Below, piece after piece: positions 24,988 through 31,671 of a stretch of 33,834 nucleotides of DNA (positions within the stretch are counted from its first letter, which is position 1; every line of letters starts with the position of its first letter). A model generated the notes under the pieces. It saw nothing but the letters and a program-made list of their open reading frames with translations, made no database searches and had not been told where the DNA came from. Made by a program: the position numbers and the translations under genes. The stretch is from IMG/VR virus record IMGVR_UViG_3300021356_000077, positions 1 to 33,834 of that record; one strand, given 5' to 3'. The DNA comes from a virus.

Positions 24988-27066
24988 TTAGAAACACTCA
25001 GGAGTGTCGTCTGCTGGTCCTATAATATCTAGGTTGTCATCGGTACTACCATTTGGAATTTCACCAGTGGTGCCACCACCACCAGTTCCTGTACCAACTG
25101 TTCCAGTGGTGCCTCCACCAGTAGAACCAGTTCCTGTACCAGTTTCATTAGTTCCACCAGTTCCTGTTCCACCTCCATCTGCAAAGTCTGCAGGTTCACC
25201 ATTGTTTGTAGTTGTGGAATCAATAACAATACCAGCAATGTCAGGAACAACGTTGATAACAGGAGCAATACCGCATTCAGATCCGTTTACTGCAAGGTAA
25301 ACGTCAAATTTGGAGATAATGTCATATGAATTAGGAATGATCGAAATCTTAATTTGATCACTAATAGAAGTGTCTAGGACAGTGATGGTATTTATGTCCA
25401 CAACCCCAGTGGTATAATTGATTTTGCCTGCTGTTTCGTTGACATAAACCTTTTCAGATTCTTCGAGTTTGAAGAGTCTGAGATTACCCATTCCATCTTC
25501 ATCTAGGTAAACTGTCGTGTTTGCTCCATATTCTGCAGTTGTAAATCCTGATGATGCCAAAGAAGAAATTCCATGGCACTCATTATTGATAGGTTGGTGG
25601 AAATCAATGCAATATGATGAAGCAACACCCTTTGAAGGTGCGAAACATTTACGGATTCTTAGTTTGGTGATGTTTGATGTGATTGATGGGTGAGCATTAT
25701 CAATTGCTGTTTGAATTTTTGAATATTTGAACTTACCATCAAACTTCTTAACTGACTCACCATTGATGTAACCGTTGATTGCAGTTTCAACGTAATTTTT
25801 AATCTCGTTAGGTGATAGATTGGTAGTGTTGATGTCATAGTATGCAGTAGTTCTCAATTCAACCTCAAGAACCTTCGCATCAACAACTTCTGGGATGATG
25901 GATGCAATAGTGTAATCTTTTAGTGACCTAACAAGGTTTCTCTTTGTGTTTGTATCAATGTTTAGACCTGTTTTGGTCTTAACTGCCAAAAAGACCTTAC
26001 CGTACTGAGGTGGATCTAGTTCCTCACCACCATATGCGATAACATCATCAGTATCACTGTAAATTTGACGGAAAATGTTCTCGTAGTCCTTAGATGTCAC
26101 TGCTCTGTTCTGAGTAGAGAACTGTCTAGGTGCTTTGAACTTGATTTTCTCTAGGGACTCAGCAGCAACACCACCAGAAGACTTAGAGACCACTGTAATA
26201 GTTGCTTCTGAGGTAATATCTCTACCAACAGCATCAACCACCGTTCCAGTAAACGAAAATGACCCTGCATTGTTAGCAGCAGAACCTTGAGTCTGGATAT
26301 AGTTGAATTCTACAACCTCACCGTCAACACTTTCCCTACCAAAGACCCCATCACCGAAATAAACCTCATATCTAAGGTCTTCAACCTCTTGTAAGAAGTA
26401 AACACGATCTTTTGAGTCTAGATCAATGATAGTTTGTGCTTTAACGTAGTTATTTCTGACAGTGGAGTTTTCGGACTGTCTAACATAAACCTTCAATGTC
26501 GAAATATCAACATTTTCGTTGGGGATGACAAATCTTTGTGTTGTATCAGTTTTATCAACCACGTATTCATAGTCAAGCAACTGACCTTCAAAAACTGTGA
26601 GGTTATTCCAAGTTGCTTGACCTGTAATTGAGTTGACAGGAACAGTAACATTCTCTACAATCGAAAAAATGAAAGATTCGTTGTCAATTCTTGATGCTAG
26701 AACAGATCCTGCTTTCAAAGTAGCAGTGTTGGGATATTCACCATCTTCAATCTGAGGTACAATCAAATTGATATTGACAACTGCCTTAGACGCACTGATT
26801 GAGTCAGGTGTATAGTTAAAATACTTGAGGATATTGACTACATTGTCCCTAATTGTTGATGTGGACAAAAATAGTTCGTTAACAGCAAGGTTTGCATTGA
26901 ATGCAGAGTAATAAGTGTTGTATGCTAGAATGTCCAGCAAATACGACAGAGTAGAACCTTCAAAATCGTAGTCAGTAAACTCCGATCTAGTTCTTAGGTA
27001 AGACTTGATAGACTCTTTGATTTCCTCAAAATCAAGAGTCGTTAAATTTGAAGGTCTAGTTGCCAT
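24988..27066 (-). CDS. 6: Baseplate wedge protein gp6
   Basis: 692 aa (T4 gp6: 660). The N-terminus (DFEEIKESIKSYLRTRSEF, FEGSTLSYLLDILAYNTYY, NLAVNELFLSTSTIRDNVV, LKYFNYTPDS) is the conserved start of the gp6/baseplate J-like family. YFGDGVFGRE near residue 240 and the FKAPRQFSTQNRAVTSKDYE block near 310-330 are also typical of the J-like fold. gp6 forms the dimeric core bundle of the wedge that holds the baseplate ring together. It follows gp25 with a 3-nt gap and has an AAGG ribosome site in the gp25 stop region. Unusual: a Gly/Thr-rich C-terminal tail from about residue 625, ending DDTPECF. Confidence 0.95.
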   Translation of the reverse strand: MATRPSNLTTLDFEEIKESIKSYLRTRSEFTDYDFEGSTLSYLLDILAYNTYYSAFNANLAVNELFLSTSTIRDNVVNILKYFNYTPDSISASKAVVNINLIVPQIEDGEYPNTATLKAGSVLASRIDNESFIFSIVENVTVPVNSITGQATWNNLTVFEGQLLDYEYVVDKTDTTQRFVIPNENVDISTLKVYVRQSENSTVRNNYVKAQTIIDLDSKDRVYFLQEVEDLRYEVYFGDGVFGRESVDGEVVEFNYIQTQGSAANNAGSFSFTGTVVDAVGRDITSEATITVVSKSSGGVAAESLEKIKFKAPRQFSTQNRAVTSKDYENIFRQIYSDTDDVIAYGGEELDPPQYGKVFLAVKTKTGLNIDTNTKRNLVRSLKDYTIASIIPEVVDAKVLEVELRTTAYYDINTTNLSPNEIKNYVETAINGYINGESVKKFDGKFKYSKIQTAIDNAHPSITSNITKLRIRKCFAPSKGVASSYCIDFHQPINNECHGISSLASSGFTTAEYGANTTVYLDEDGMGNLRLFKLEESEKVYVNETAGKINYTTGVVDINTITVLDTSISDQIKISIIPNSYDIISKFDVYLAVNGSECGIAPVINVVPDIAGIVIDSTTTNNGEPADFADGGGTGTGGTNETGTGTGSTGGGTTGTVGTGTGGGGTTGEIPNGSTDDNLDIIGPADDTPECF
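25050..25195 (-). repeat. Gly/Thr-rich low-complexity tail of gp6
   Basis: Residues about 624-673 read as runs of GTGTGG, GTGTGSTGGG and TVGTGTGGGG. At the DNA level the plus strand shows repeated units such as CCAGTTCCTGTACCA (twice) and TTCCAGTGGTGCC (twice), so it is a degenerate short tandem repeat prone to length change. T4 gp6 has no such tail that I know of. Confidence 0.8.
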
Positions 27067-27069
27067 TTT

Positions 27070-27474
27070 TTACCTTGCTAGTAGGAATGTCACAGTTTGT
27101 TTTAGTGGTTGACCAATAATTGTAAATTCAATCTCAACTTCAATTTCATTACTATCTTCCAGTAAGTATATATCTGTATTGTCGATGGTTACTCTGGGTT
27201 CAAAGTTATTGATTGCTGTTTCAATCTCATCTTTCAAAACTTCACCCAAGAATTGGTCTGCTTGCTCAAAAAGCAGATTTCCTACTTGAGAACCGAAAGA
27301 TGGATTGAAAGGTTTTTCACCAAATCTGGTCAAAACAATATTTCTTACAGCATCACGGATTGCATTTGCGTCTTTTACTTGTGTAACGTCATCTGTACCA
27401 GGATTTTTCAGGAATGAAAGTTTCACATCCCTGAATGCTCTTGAAATATCAGTGACTTTTCCTGTGATTGCCAT
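27070..27474 (-). CDS. 25: Baseplate wedge protein gp25 (lysozyme-like gp25/GPW family)
   Basis: 134 aa, matching the T4 gp25 length (132). The segment DAVRNIVLTRFGEKPFNPSF, then GSQVGNLLFEQ, then EIETAINNFEPRV is the signature of the GPW/gp25 family. gp25 ties the inner baseplate to the sheath and is present in nearly all contractile tails. The ATG overlaps the stop of the upstream 62-aa gene by one base (TAATG), so the two are translationally coupled. Confidence 0.96.
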   Translation of the reverse strand: MAITGKVTDISRAFRDVKLSFLKNPGTDDVTQVKDANAIRDAVRNIVLTRFGEKPFNPSFGSQVGNLLFEQADQFLGEVLKDEIETAINNFEPRVTIDNTDIYLLEDSNEIEVEIEFTIIGQPLKQTVTFLLAR

Positions 27475-27662
27475 TAGAGTCTTTCAACGTAATCGTCAAA
27501 TCCGTCTTTGCCTCCACACCACTTACTCATTCTATCTTCGGGAGGATTTTTCTTGTTTTTCCTTGCCATGTTAAGATATTTATCACTGCGTGGATCAGTG
27601 ATAAGTGTCATGCCCGATTCAATAAACGCATTACCTTGATCAGGGATAGGATTGTTTGCCAT
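27474..27662 (-). CDS. Small hypothetical protein, first gene of the late operon
   Basis: 62 aa: starts MANNPIPDQGNAFIESG, centre KNKKNPPEDRMSKWCGG, ends DDYVERL. Hydrophilic, no membrane segment. Not recognised. An excellent ribosome site GGAGG lies just before the ATG (plus-strand tcctcc at 27665-27670), and a late promoter lies 57 nt upstream. Its position ahead of gp25 suggests a structural or assembly role, but nothing in the sequence shows which. Confidence 0.8.
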   Translation of the reverse strand: MANNPIPDQGNAFIESGMTLITDPRSDKYLNMARKNKKNPPEDRMSKWCGGKDGFDDYVERL

Positions 27663-27718: not shown

Positions 27719-27726
27719 TATTTATA
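27719..27726 (-). promoter_or_regulatory. T4-type late promoter (TATAAATA)
   Basis: The minus strand reads TATAAATA, an exact match to the T4 late promoter octamer recognised by gp55-RNA polymerase. It lies 57 nt upstream of the 62-aa gene and directly after the terminator of the preceding unit, as a promoter for the 25-6-giant-8 operon should. Confidence 0.8.
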
Positions 27727-27728
27727 GT

Positions 27729-27755
27729 AAAAAACCCACCCCTTTCGGAGTGGGT
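27729..27755 (-). terminator. Rho-independent terminator
   Basis: On the minus strand, stem CCCACTCC pairs with GGGGTGGG (8 bp with one T-G pair) around a GAAA tetraloop, followed by six T residues. It lies 5 nt after the stop of the 48-aa gene. Confidence 0.92.
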
Positions 27756-27760
27756 ATTGA

Positions 27761-27907
27761 TCACTTGCCTTGACCACGATAACGTTTCTTGGCTTTGTTG
27801 CGACTAGTTGCTGCATACTTGGTATGCTGTCCACATCCTTGTCGAGTATTTTTGGGCTTGGACTCAATGAGTTTACCACCACTGATAGATTTTGAACGTG
27901 CTGCCAT
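27761..27907 (-). CDS. 48-aa basic protein in its own transcription unit
   Basis: 48 aa, too short for a usual gene finder but clearly a gene: it begins MAARSKSISGGKLIESK, continues NTRQGCGQHTKYAATS and ends RNKAKKRYRGQGK. About a third of the residues are Lys/Arg and it would be strongly basic, suggesting nucleic-acid or anionic-surface binding. It lies between an extended -10 promoter and a strong terminator, so it is expressed by itself. I remember near-identical small proteins in other marine T4-like cyanophages, without a known function. No Shine-Dalgarno sequence is visible. Confidence 0.85.
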   Translation of the reverse strand: MAARSKSISGGKLIESKPKNTRQGCGQHTKYAATSRNKAKKRYRGQGK

Positions 27908-27930
27908 AGTTTGACTTGTGAACTGCTGAT

Positions 27931-27955
27931 ATTATAGCACAAATTAGATTGTAAA
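27931..27955 (-). promoter_or_regulatory. Extended -10 (sigma70-like) promoter of the 48-aa gene
   Basis: Minus strand TGCTATAAT (TGn + perfect TATAAT at 27931-27936), overlapping the end of the PAAR-like gene. A TTTACA at 27950-27955 is only 13 nt away, too close for a classical -35, so recognition would rely on the extended -10. The leader would be roughly 18-20 nt. Confidence 0.6.
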
Positions 27956-28450
27956 CACAGTCCAAGTGCCAGTTGCGATTTTGGACCAACATGGTGCCTT
28001 GCCAGGGGTCTTGGTTCCCAAATCATCTCCGACTCTAGCAATCGGAATACCTGTAACCAAAACTGTTGGTGGGTTTGCCATCGGGATTGCCCAAGGAACC
28101 ACGATTCTAGTGTGTCCACCACCTCCTATAATGTCCTCAATCGTAAGTTTGGTACAACCGAACGGAACAGGGCATAGACCACCCTTACAGGGGATTTTAA
28201 CGAGGTTTGTGCCAATTGCTGGGTGAGGAATCAAAACATCACCTTGAACCAAAGGTGGTTGTTTTTCGATTAGAACCTTTCCTTTGATTGGAACGAGTGG
28301 AATTGTGCTGACAGGCATCCAAGCACATGATATATTCTTAGTTGCCACAACCAAAGGAATCGGACCAATCTTTTGATGCAAGAATGCAGGCAAAAGAAGT
28401 CCATGTCCTGAACAAATACCTGATGGTACTCCAATTGGTCTATATCCCAT
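27944..28450 (-). CDS. PAAR-like tail-spike tip protein
   Basis: 168 aa, rich in Pro, Gly, Ile and Val. The C-terminal half (VLVTGIPIARVGDDLGT, then CWSKIATGTWTVF) follows the PAAR pattern of V-x-G-x-P-x-ARVGD followed by a Cys and a G-x-x-x-V strand. Earlier there are SGICSGHGLL, NISCAW and PCKGGLCPVPFGC, with Cys/His that could bind a metal ion as in PAAR tips. T4 has the PAAR protein gp5.4 (97 aa) at the spike tip; this one is longer. It starts 2 nt after the stop of the 1072-aa gene. A non-PAAR spike or chaperone is possible but less likely. Confidence 0.65.
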   Translation of the reverse strand: MGYRPIGVPSGICSGHGLLLPAFLHQKIGPIPLVVATKNISCAWMPVSTIPLVPIKGKVLIEKQPPLVQGDVLIPHPAIGTNLVKIPCKGGLCPVPFGCTKLTIEDIIGGGGHTRIVVPWAIPMANPPTVLVTGIPIARVGDDLGTKTPGKAPCWSKIATGTWTVFTI

Positions 28451-28452
28451 GA

Positions 28453-31400
28453 CTACAAGAAACTCCAGTTGGCGTTAGATGGGTGGTCATTATAGGTCTT
28501 AATAATATTAGACCATCTGTTAGCAGCATTGCTAAAGTTATTGACAAAATATTTAGTATAACTCCACGTCATTTGCTCATTTGGTTGCGGTGGACAGCAG
28601 GGTTGTCCGCAACCCAGAGGTGGTGTATAGGTAGTTGTTGTCTCTATTCCCGTTTCAGGATCTGTAGTTGTAGTAGTTGTCGATGGTTGTTGCTGGAACG
28701 GTTCTCTGGGTCCAAAATCACAACTTCCTGTAGGTGACTCAAAAGTGCAAGTGACTGTAAAGGTTCTCTTGATTTGCTCTCTTTCATCAGGAATCCATTT
28801 TGTGGGCATGATCTTCAATTCTGTAGTAGATCTAGGAATATCTCTCCATCTATTGACAGGACCATACTTTTTAACTTTATCATTGGCAACATCAAAGATC
28901 TTAACCTTGTTATCTGGATTATCATTGAATCCAGACGCAAACACATTACCAGTTTCTCTCTGAATAGATGAATTTGAAAGATTTGTATCAATGACCAATT
29001 TACTAACATTACCTTGTGTCAGATCATTGATTGCAGCACTTGACTTTGAGGTGCCCAAAAAGTTGACTTCATCATTATTTTCATCTTCGAGTTTCATTTC
29101 GTCAACCAATCTTCTATCTTGACCCTCATCATATGACTGAACTTGTTCTGGTGTAAAAACCTCATGTAGAATAGGATCAACTTTTGCAAGTGTTTTGGGT
29201 GAAATCACCCTTCTAGCACTAGTAACTGTTGCAGTATTTTTAGTGACCCCAAAGAAAAGCACATCACCAACCTGAGGTGTACGTGAAGCATCTCTGCATA
29301 TAAACTCTGTTCCCGCAGCATTGATTGTCTGAACAGTTCCAGATAGGGTTCTATCGTCCAATCCACGGAATTGATGACCTACTTGAATTTGAGTAAGGGG
29401 ACTTTCGGTAAATACGCCTTCAACAACTGCCAAAGCAGTGGTGTTATCTTGAGGGAATACCTCAAATGTAGTATTAGTCTCGTTATATCCGTACCCTTTC
29501 TCAGTCAAAACTGCTACATCTAGTTCAAATGCACCAGCAACAGGTGTAATTTGCAATTGAGTCCCTGCAACATATGGTGATGTAGGCAAACTTACGTTGA
29601 ATGTAACCGATTCACTGACCCTAGCACCAGCATTTAGAACTGTCACCGCAGTAATTCTGCCATCATAGTTCTTAGAAATTGCTTTTGCTGCTTCTCCTGC
29701 ATAAGTCCAGTCCAAATTACCGTCACTTGCAGTGCCTGTGGTGTGAGTTGGAGCAGTCGCACCTGATGTTCCAGTGGCAGCTGCGGTATAAAGGTTGGCA
29801 CCAACGAAAACTTGGTCCCCAGAATTGTATGCTTGAGTACCAACCCACGAATTTCCGATCGTGATTAGTGGATTTGAGGTGGCACCATCACCAGGAGTGA
29901 CTGTAATTGCGGTAATTCGGTCCCCATCCAAGGTAGCAACTGCTGTTTGAGTGCCTGTATTAAAGGAGATTGAGGGTGTAGATGTGTATCCAGACCCCTG
30001 TTTGGTGATTTCAACGTACTCTGTGCGAGTTGTACCGATCAAATCTAGACTAAAAGCAGGCAAATTGCCTCTATACAGTAGTTTTGCTGTACCATTCAGC
30101 TCTGTTCCTGTAGTATGAGTGGGTGCATTAGCACCAAAATCACCTTCTAGAACAACTTGATAGACATTTACCCCAGAAACTATCATAGAATTGAGTTCAG
30201 CATTGGCATTTGCTACCCAATCTGTGTAATTTGGGGTGATAGTTGCCGCGGGAGTCAACTGATATCCCACCCCTTCAACGTCTACAGTGATAGAATCGAG
30301 CGGAGCACTGCCCAAAATGACTCCTGATCCGTCTTTTCCTGTCGGAGAAGAGATTCCAACCTCAACATCGTTGGTATATCCCACTCCAGGATTGACTAAA
30401 GTGAGTCCAGTTAGTTCAGAATTGTCTGTTGCATCGATTGTTATGATAGTTTCATTGACTGTACCTTCATTTCCTTCGGAATTGTGCTGATACACACCCT
30501 CTGGTTCATAGATTTTGAGGTATCTTTCCTGCTCCAACTTCTCAGGAGTGTCATTCCTCTTCAAATTGATGAAACCATTGACCTCAGTATCGAGTTCTGA
30601 CACCATCATGCCAGCATATTTCTGCATTCCCTGCCCTAATTGCACAAAAGACTGCTGTTGAGATGCAACAATCTTAGATAAACGACTACTAGGTTTGACT
30701 TTATTCATCCTGGTAGTCTCTTGTTGAGTCACAGGATACTTATTTTCGACCTCTCGGTTCTCTTTGGTGGTGTAAAGTGCAGGATTGACCTGCAATTTGC
30801 TGTAAAAGATCTCTTTTTGGATGAATTCAAACCTTCCAAACACAATACACTTGTCTTTGATCCCTCCACCAGCAACAATTTGCACATTTTGGTTGATGTT
30901 ATTCGACAAACTTGCCCCAGATGTCTGATTTTGGAGGGGAGATGCAAGTTCAACGTAGTGGTAATTGAGATCTTCGACCGTACTACTCGAAACAGACCCC
31001 GATTGACGGTCCTGTTCGACATCATTCCACTTTGAATAGTGATAGATCTTCGTAATTTCGACTCCACCAAGCAAATCTCCAGTTCTTAAGTGCTGCCTGG
31101 GTTCAGAAGTTGGGTCTGGAGTGCCTCCATTGTACCTAATGCAGATTGCAGAACTACTAATACTGTTACCAGAGGTTCCTACAACGTGAATTTCCTCATC
31201 ATCTGCGTTAGTTGTGATCTCAGTAGTGGTAATATCAAGTGGTTGCTTCCCATCAGGGCAATATCCACCTCCTGTTCTACACCATCTCTCGTGATCTGAG
31301 GTATCCCAGAGCATATGAAACATGATTTCTGACTCTACATCGGGTGTGCTGACCTCATGAACGTAATTTGGACCAGTACAACAGATACAAACAGGTTCTC

Positions 31401-31671
31401 CATCTGGTTTACAAGGTGGAGCACAGACATATTCAACCCATTGGGGACCTTGAGCAATGATGGTAGACTGATTTCCATCACCAGGCTCATGTTCTCCGTA
31501 CTCAAATGCTAATTGACAGTTCTGACCAGGGTTATCATAGATCCTACTATCCAGTTTGCCACTAAAAGGATTTGGATTGCCAACTACAGCAGCACTCTTA
31601 TAGGTCTTCTCACTTCTACTTTCATACCAGTAGTAACCAAGATTTCCAGACTCACTCAAGGTAATCGGCAT
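28453..31671 (-). CDS. Large cysteine-containing baseplate/tail structural protein
   Basis: 1072 aa, family not recognised. The N-terminal part has a Cys cluster (C52, C83, C87, C95, C97, C98, C131, C138; CAPPC, CICC). The middle (about 400-800) holds modules shared with the giant protein: NPGVGYTNDV, VEGVGYQLTP and QGSGYTSTPSISF repeats, and two copies of a PTHTTGT-x-x-x-G module (one with SDGNLDWTYAG). Residues 985-1045 have more Cys (TCTF, SCDF, GCGQPCC) around a Thr-rich linker (TTTTTTDPETGIETTTTY). It overlaps the previous gene by 20 nt and is followed at once by the PAAR-like tip. The position suggests a spike/hub or adjacent baseplate part. No lysozyme motif typical of T4 gp5 was seen. 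Confidence 0.75.
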   Translation of the reverse strand: MPITLSESGNLGYYWYESRSEKTYKSAAVVGNPNPFSGKLDSRIYDNPGQNCQLAFEYGEHEPGDGNQSTIIAQGPQWVEYVCAPPCKPDGEPVCICCTGPNYVHEVSTPDVESEIMFHMLWDTSDHERWCRTGGGYCPDGKQPLDITTTEITTNADDEEIHVVGTSGNSISSSAICIRYNGGTPDPTSEPRQHLRTGDLLGGVEITKIYHYSKWNDVEQDRQSGSVSSSTVEDLNYHYVELASPLQNQTSGASLSNNINQNVQIVAGGGIKDKCIVFGRFEFIQKEIFYSKLQVNPALYTTKENREVENKYPVTQQETTRMNKVKPSSRLSKIVASQQQSFVQLGQGMQKYAGMMVSELDTEVNGFINLKRNDTPEKLEQERYLKIYEPEGVYQHNSEGNEGTVNETIITIDATDNSELTGLTLVNPGVGYTNDVEVGISSPTGKDGSGVILGSAPLDSITVDVEGVGYQLTPAATITPNYTDWVANANAELNSMIVSGVNVYQVVLEGDFGANAPTHTTGTELNGTAKLLYRGNLPAFSLDLIGTTRTEYVEITKQGSGYTSTPSISFNTGTQTAVATLDGDRITAITVTPGDGATSNPLITIGNSWVGTQAYNSGDQVFVGANLYTAAATGTSGATAPTHTTGTASDGNLDWTYAGEAAKAISKNYDGRITAVTVLNAGARVSESVTFNVSLPTSPYVAGTQLQITPVAGAFELDVAVLTEKGYGYNETNTTFEVFPQDNTTALAVVEGVFTESPLTQIQVGHQFRGLDDRTLSGTVQTINAAGTEFICRDASRTPQVGDVLFFGVTKNTATVTSARRVISPKTLAKVDPILHEVFTPEQVQSYDEGQDRRLVDEMKLEDENNDEVNFLGTSKSSAAINDLTQGNVSKLVIDTNLSNSSIQRETGNVFASGFNDNPDNKVKIFDVANDKVKKYGPVNRWRDIPRSTTELKIMPTKWIPDEREQIKRTFTVTCTFESPTGSCDFGPREPFQQQPSTTTTTTDPETGIETTTTYTPPLGCGQPCCPPQPNEQMTWSYTKYFVNNFSNAANRWSNIIKTYNDHPSNANWSFL
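29670..30170 (-). repeat. PTHxTG modules of the 1072-aa protein
   Basis: Two copies: FGANAPTHTTGTELNG at about 30080-30150 and GATAPTHTTGTASDGNLDW at about 29690-29770, the latter preceded by YNSGDQVFVGANLYTA. The giant protein has a third copy (PPTHLTGDASDGGVTWTFY, about 16300-16380), and a related NYNIGDYVYNGTYSYRV segment at about 12840-12905. The layout resembles small chitin-binding-like modules (CBM5/12 style), which is inference. Confidence 0.65.

Follow-up and report, generated by a model that had tools for sequence, protein, structure and literature searches.

The question raised by this locus is why a 48-codon gene lying among the tail genes of a T4-like virus should have a host-type promoter motif in front of it and a terminator behind it, and when and for what purpose its small product might be made. 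The stretch analysed (the window) is the 33,834-base virus record IMGVR_UViG_3300021356_000077, in which the T4-like tail genes all lie on the minus strand. An earlier note on this DNA had described an extended -10 promoter, a 48-codon gene, a GAAA-loop terminator and a late promoter packed together here, and all four are found on that strand where it had put them.

Gene arrangement in the window

Read in the direction of transcription, a 1072-aa baseplate wedge/tail protein (28453-31671) is followed by a PAAR-type spike protein of family phrog_281 (27944-28450), the end of which lies only 36 nt upstream of the gene for the 48-aa basic protein (27761-27907). The extended -10 site, TGCTATAAT, is at 27931-27939, with its hexamer at 27936-27931; transcription from it would start at about 27924, in agreement with the start near 27925 predicted earlier. 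Past the small gene come an intrinsic terminator (27734-27755), a T4-type late promoter, TATAAATA (27719-27726), a 62-aa protein of unknown function belonging to phrog_1414 (27474-27662), and the baseplate wedge proteins gp25 (27070-27474) and gp6 (24988-27066). Between gp6 and a gp8-like gene (3409-1877) is a single open frame of 7183 aa (3411-24962), occupying the place of the very large virion structural protein of Syn9, S-CAM1 and others. Another strong hairpin that resembles a terminator, with a long run of T, is seen at 33688-33664 on the same strand, 5' of several small ORFs. Rfam and tRNA scans gave no matches.

A conserved basic protein of cyanophages

The 48-aa protein matches the phrog_516 profile over its full length (1-48 of 48, E 3.9e-27), as do all 65 members of the alignment of its relatives; the family was already known and is annotated as of unknown function. 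By tblastn, 443 of 50,697 phage records match the protein (447 at a looser cut-off), and in 359 of the 443 the match spans 80% or more of the query; by name, 351 of the 443 are Synechococcus, 63 Cyanophage, 24 Prochlorococcus and 5 Marine. At E 1e-30 the window gp6 matches 2254 records, of which 373 are named Synechococcus and 61 Cyanophage; since these counts are similar, the small gene is about as widespread as gp6 among records with those names. A match on a 188-kb contig of Nonlabens xiamenensis (NZ_RMVE01000006.1, locus L147) had the look of a flavobacterial phage but was rejected as a sign of spread beyond cyanophages: with a gp6 that shares 99.6% identity with the P-TIM40 cyanophage protein, the contig was treated as cyanophage sequence in a bacterial assembly. 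The other matches on genome contigs (17 in all), nearly all of them metagenome bins, were not used as host evidence.

Differences from the window gene in 53 gene copies fall 605, 430 and 1363 times on codon positions 1, 2 and 3, the copies being ungapped, with at most 18 residue changes, and related and partly redundant; codon differences in the core block are 728 synonymous against 211 non-synonymous. Judged by this pattern and the profile match, the 48-codon gene is evidently real and under purifying selection. It has no annotated feature of its own in P-SSM2 (locus L087, 3001-3144), S-CAM1 (NC_020837; L002, 5001-5147), S-CAM7 (L090, 2977-3108) or P-RSM3 (L091, 2971-3105). A text search of the literature for the names phrog_516 and T4-GC 394, the latter from the S-PM2 record, or for S-PM2p076 found no mention, and the gene is not named in the accessible portions of PMC5082946 and PMC7238727.

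The protein contains nine Lys, five Arg, one Cys, one Glu and no Asp, for a pI of 11.2 and a net charge of about +12. The high Lys/Arg content remarked on earlier is a family trait, all 67 distinct phrog_516 proteins having charges of +9 to +14 and a pI of at least 10.5. Invariant among the 65 aligned proteins are M1, K19, Q23, G24, K41, R44, G45, Q46 and G47, and the conserved core can be written P-K-x-T-R-Q-G ... T-K-Y-x-A-T-S-R-N ... K-x-Y-R-G-Q-G. The single Cys, to which the earlier note had also given weight, was rejected as a functional residue: only 19 of the 67 proteins have a Cys at all, and Cys25, directly after RQG, is present in 18. Pfam gave no match for the window protein, and only weak, scattered matches, none of them credible, for a few of the 65 relatives. 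AlphaFold, given 53 sequences, predicted no fold (mean pLDDT 61, pTM 0.16). The charge and the predicted disorder make nucleic-acid binding possible.

One alternative is that the protein is an early host-takeover peptide that attaches, shortly after infection, to the ribosome, RNA polymerase or nucleoid of the host. Its strong positive charge would suit such a role, as would the confinement of matches in the phage collection to cyanophage-type names; against it, a profile search of the PDB, many ribosomes included, found no solved relative, the one hit being a chance match at E 1.9. With the mixed promoter evidence given below, we consider this unlikely. The same structures have little to say on a place in the virion: they gave best matches of E 1.9e-29 for Syn9 gp6 and E 1.8e-16 for the window gp25, and the absence of the 48-aa protein from known baseplates is uninformative because no very close solved baseplate was seen.

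The extended -10 promoter

The TGCTATAAT site is one of three occurrences of TGNTATAAT on the two strands of the window, where base composition predicts about 2.5, so that the motif alone is no more than chance would give; what counts is only where it lies and that relatives share it. Its spacing to the ATG is 23 nt, within the 20-26 nt taken as suitable, and its best -35, GTGTTT, is poor (two matches of six, spacer 16). The relatives sampled came to 92 copies of the locus: the 80 top-ranking of 493 confirmed IMG/VR matches, 10 loci taken from phage records, and two copies of the window (itself and L083). When every copy that repeated another in both its protein and its 50 upstream nt was dropped, 75 distinct loci remained, a sample that is not random and leans to close relatives because the best matches were taken. 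TGNTATAAT lies within 60 nt upstream of the phrog_516 gene in 13 of these, always 22-25 nt from the ATG. Mechanically called ATG ORFs of 60 aa or more from the same loci served as controls, and 9 of their 483 starts have the motif (Fisher 3e-7); some of these ORFs are non-genes, which lowers the control value. With the proteins clustered at 85% identity, 8 of 38 clusters have the promoter (6e-6 against the same controls). The 13 do not include L049 (truncated by the contig end), L074 (TG missing from the proper position) or L030 and L038 (mismatched hexamers). All 13 have AGT at offset 5 or 6 past the hexamer, and the four S-CAM1-type loci also have TTGGCA 17 nt upstream of it.

These figures bear on a simple alternative, that TATAAT arose by chance in the A+T-rich 36-nt gap and that the gene is transcribed by read-through only. 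The chance-level number of sites in the window and the poor -35 would be expected on this account, which does not predict the fixed spacing and the AGT in 13 of 13 loci, nor their recurrence in 8 of 38 protein clusters; a purely fortuitous promoter is the least probable of the explanations considered here. The claim that the small gene has a host-type promoter gains from this recurrence, though the arrangement is far from universal. Four further loci (L032, L034, L035 and L063) have an extended -10 one gene farther upstream: there the adjacent upstream gene, about 255-260 codons long and ending 11-13 nt short of phrog_516, has the site 23-24 nt ahead of its own start. Counting these, 17 of 75 loci have a site directly or via the adjacent upstream gene and 58 have neither; the direct site is absent from 62. 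In Syn9 and WH25-B just 2 nt separate the PAAR stop from the phrog_516 gene, and there is no extended -10 site. In L034 and L046 the upstream protein of about 260 aa that takes the place of PAAR belongs to phrog_1574 and is weakly glycosyltransferase-like; by eye, the upstream proteins of L032 and L063 resemble that of L034.

Comparable sites are found elsewhere in cyanophage genomes. In Syn9, TGCTATAAT precedes gp55, cobS (followed by gp45 and gp44), the gene before Phd/DenV, and gp203, in each case at 22-25 nt from the ATG. Like the window site, the TGCTATAAT promoters of Syn9 and WH25-B are of extended -10 form, lie 21-25 nt from the ATG and often have RGT at offset 5; several of them also have a TTGAC-type -35 and a AGGTAANCAA-like leader, both of which the window site lacks. 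Against a matrix built from 17 other cyanophage TGCTATAAT-type sites, the window leader scored p 0.16 and only the shorter AGT is shared, for which reason the site is called similar to this class and no proven member of it. Among the 13 promoter-bearing loci, p is below 0.02 for L059, L080 and S-PM2 only, and the S-CAM1 group scores worse than the window. The resemblance to this class is thus firm for some relatives and only partial for the window. Going by T4, the Syn9 genes behind these sites would be early or middle genes. In cultured cyanomyoviruses, according to the part of PMC7238727 available, nucleic-acid genes belong to the middle class and those for the capsid to the late one. A promoter resembling those of regulatory and replication genes is what a host-takeover peptide might be expected to have, but many lineages of the family are without any early-type promoter.

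Terminator, late promoter and expected read-through

The hairpin behind the small gene, ACCCACTCC-GAAA-GGGGTGGGT, has a 9-bp stem and is followed by a T run; its folding energy is -16.7 kcal/mol (z -3.43), and only 1 of 200 shuffles is as stable, which bears out its description as a GAAA-loop terminator. Terminators within 60 nt past the phrog_516 stop recur in 10 of the 75 loci, as against 16 of 491 control stops (Fisher 8e-4). The apparent terminators of the S-CAM1-type loci, about 91-100 nt past the stop, were excluded from this count because all are a single conserved sequence that probably lies within the following coding region. L034 has a terminator too, besides the promoter before its upstream neighbour, but among the 75 loci only the window has both elements on the phrog_516 gene itself. 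In its length, its full-length profile match and its place before gp25 the window gene is like the other members of the family, and it differs from them only in this regulatory arrangement.

The sequence TATAAATA at 27726-27719 is the only exact copy on either strand of the window, where composition would predict about three. It is intergenic, 56 nt before the phrog_1414 ATG at 27662, and is likely to serve the phrog_1414-gp25-gp6 unit. No terminator is found in the gap between the PAAR gene and the 48-aa gene, and because of this late read-through into the small gene would be expected. The earlier term "stand-alone" hence fits the gene as far as its own promoter and terminator are concerned and fails at its upstream side. 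The related suggestion that the protein is made at another time than its neighbours is likewise only partly sustained: the recurrent host-type promoter speaks for it, whereas the expected late read-through and the many relatives with no such promoter do not. A nearby comparison is psbA of S-PM2d, a gene described in the accessible part of PMC5931967 as having sigma-70 as well as gp55-type motifs, so as to be expressed early and late; in the window, by contrast, the late motif lies past the 48-aa gene and serves the next unit, and late expression of the small gene would come via read-through.

Gene neighbourhood and a possible structural role

In 74 of the 75 distinct loci, the window included, gp25 follows on the same strand, no more than 1.4 kb downstream. 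The gene immediately upstream is PAAR in 21 loci; 44 have no PAAR match upstream, and in 10 there is too little sequence to judge. The most serious competitor to the reading favoured below builds on this neighbourhood: the protein would be a late baseplate or virion-associated linker, assembly factor or packaged polycation of a PAAR-gp25-gp6 module, mainly made with the late genes, the extra promoter of some lineages merely adding dose. The nearly constant gp25 fits this equally well, as do the loci with PAAR upstream and the rarity of the direct promoter. Less easily accommodated are the 44 loci with no PAAR match, some with the phrog_1574 neighbour instead, and the non-structural or unknown genes (e.g., 2OG oxygenase, DenV) that part phrog_516 from gp25 in S-PM2, S-CAM1, P-SSM2 and P-RSM3; in T4, moreover, the annotation and inspection by eye show no phrog_516 counterpart from gene 5 to gene 6. 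We regard a late structural role as possible but rather improbable. A 2010 comparison of T4-like cyanophages, in the part of PMC3037559 available, picks out a hot spot in the small genes that lie between gp46 and gp25. The phrog_516 gene therefore stands where a variable gene region meets the late gp25 block.

T4 itself has small genes among its tail genes, namely repEA, repEB and gene 5.3 near gene 5, but repEA and repEB lie antisense at gene 5, unlike the 48-aa gene. A link to RepEA/RepEB was rejected, the position being different and no motif being shared when translations were compared by eye only.

Proposed expression and function

The reading that we prefer, with a probability of roughly 0.5, is that the unit encodes a phrog_516 polycation with an early or middle start plus late read-through, which binds nucleic acid or ribonucleoprotein. 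Early or in the middle of infection, host RNA polymerase with its principal sigma factor would start at the extended -10 and halt at the hairpin, giving an RNA of about 195 nt. Late in infection, transcripts of the upstream late genes would run through the 48-aa gene to the same hairpin, which would part it from the gp25-gp6 unit, and gp55-directed transcription would restart at TATAAATA for phrog_1414-gp25-gp6. The product, a short and mostly disordered polycation with a conserved core, would bind phage DNA, RNA or the ribosome through electrostatic and motif contacts. A more elaborate version, which we think doubtful, would have a near-universal, cyanophage-specific polycation with an invariant core act at two times: early on a host nucleoprotein such as the ribosome or nucleoid, and late when the genome is handled or the tail assembled. 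On this view an early promoter has been gained or lost again and again by lineages at one fixed spot.

Implications for cyanophage biology

Hundreds of genomes from T4-like viruses that infect marine cyanobacteria contain a member of phrog_516; the family is well conserved and yet stands unnamed or unannotated in the reference records. Learning when and where the protein acts would allow a role to be assigned to a protein that cyanophages share widely, and since promoter-bearing relatives such as S-PM2 and S-CAM1 are in culture, the question of timing is directly testable.
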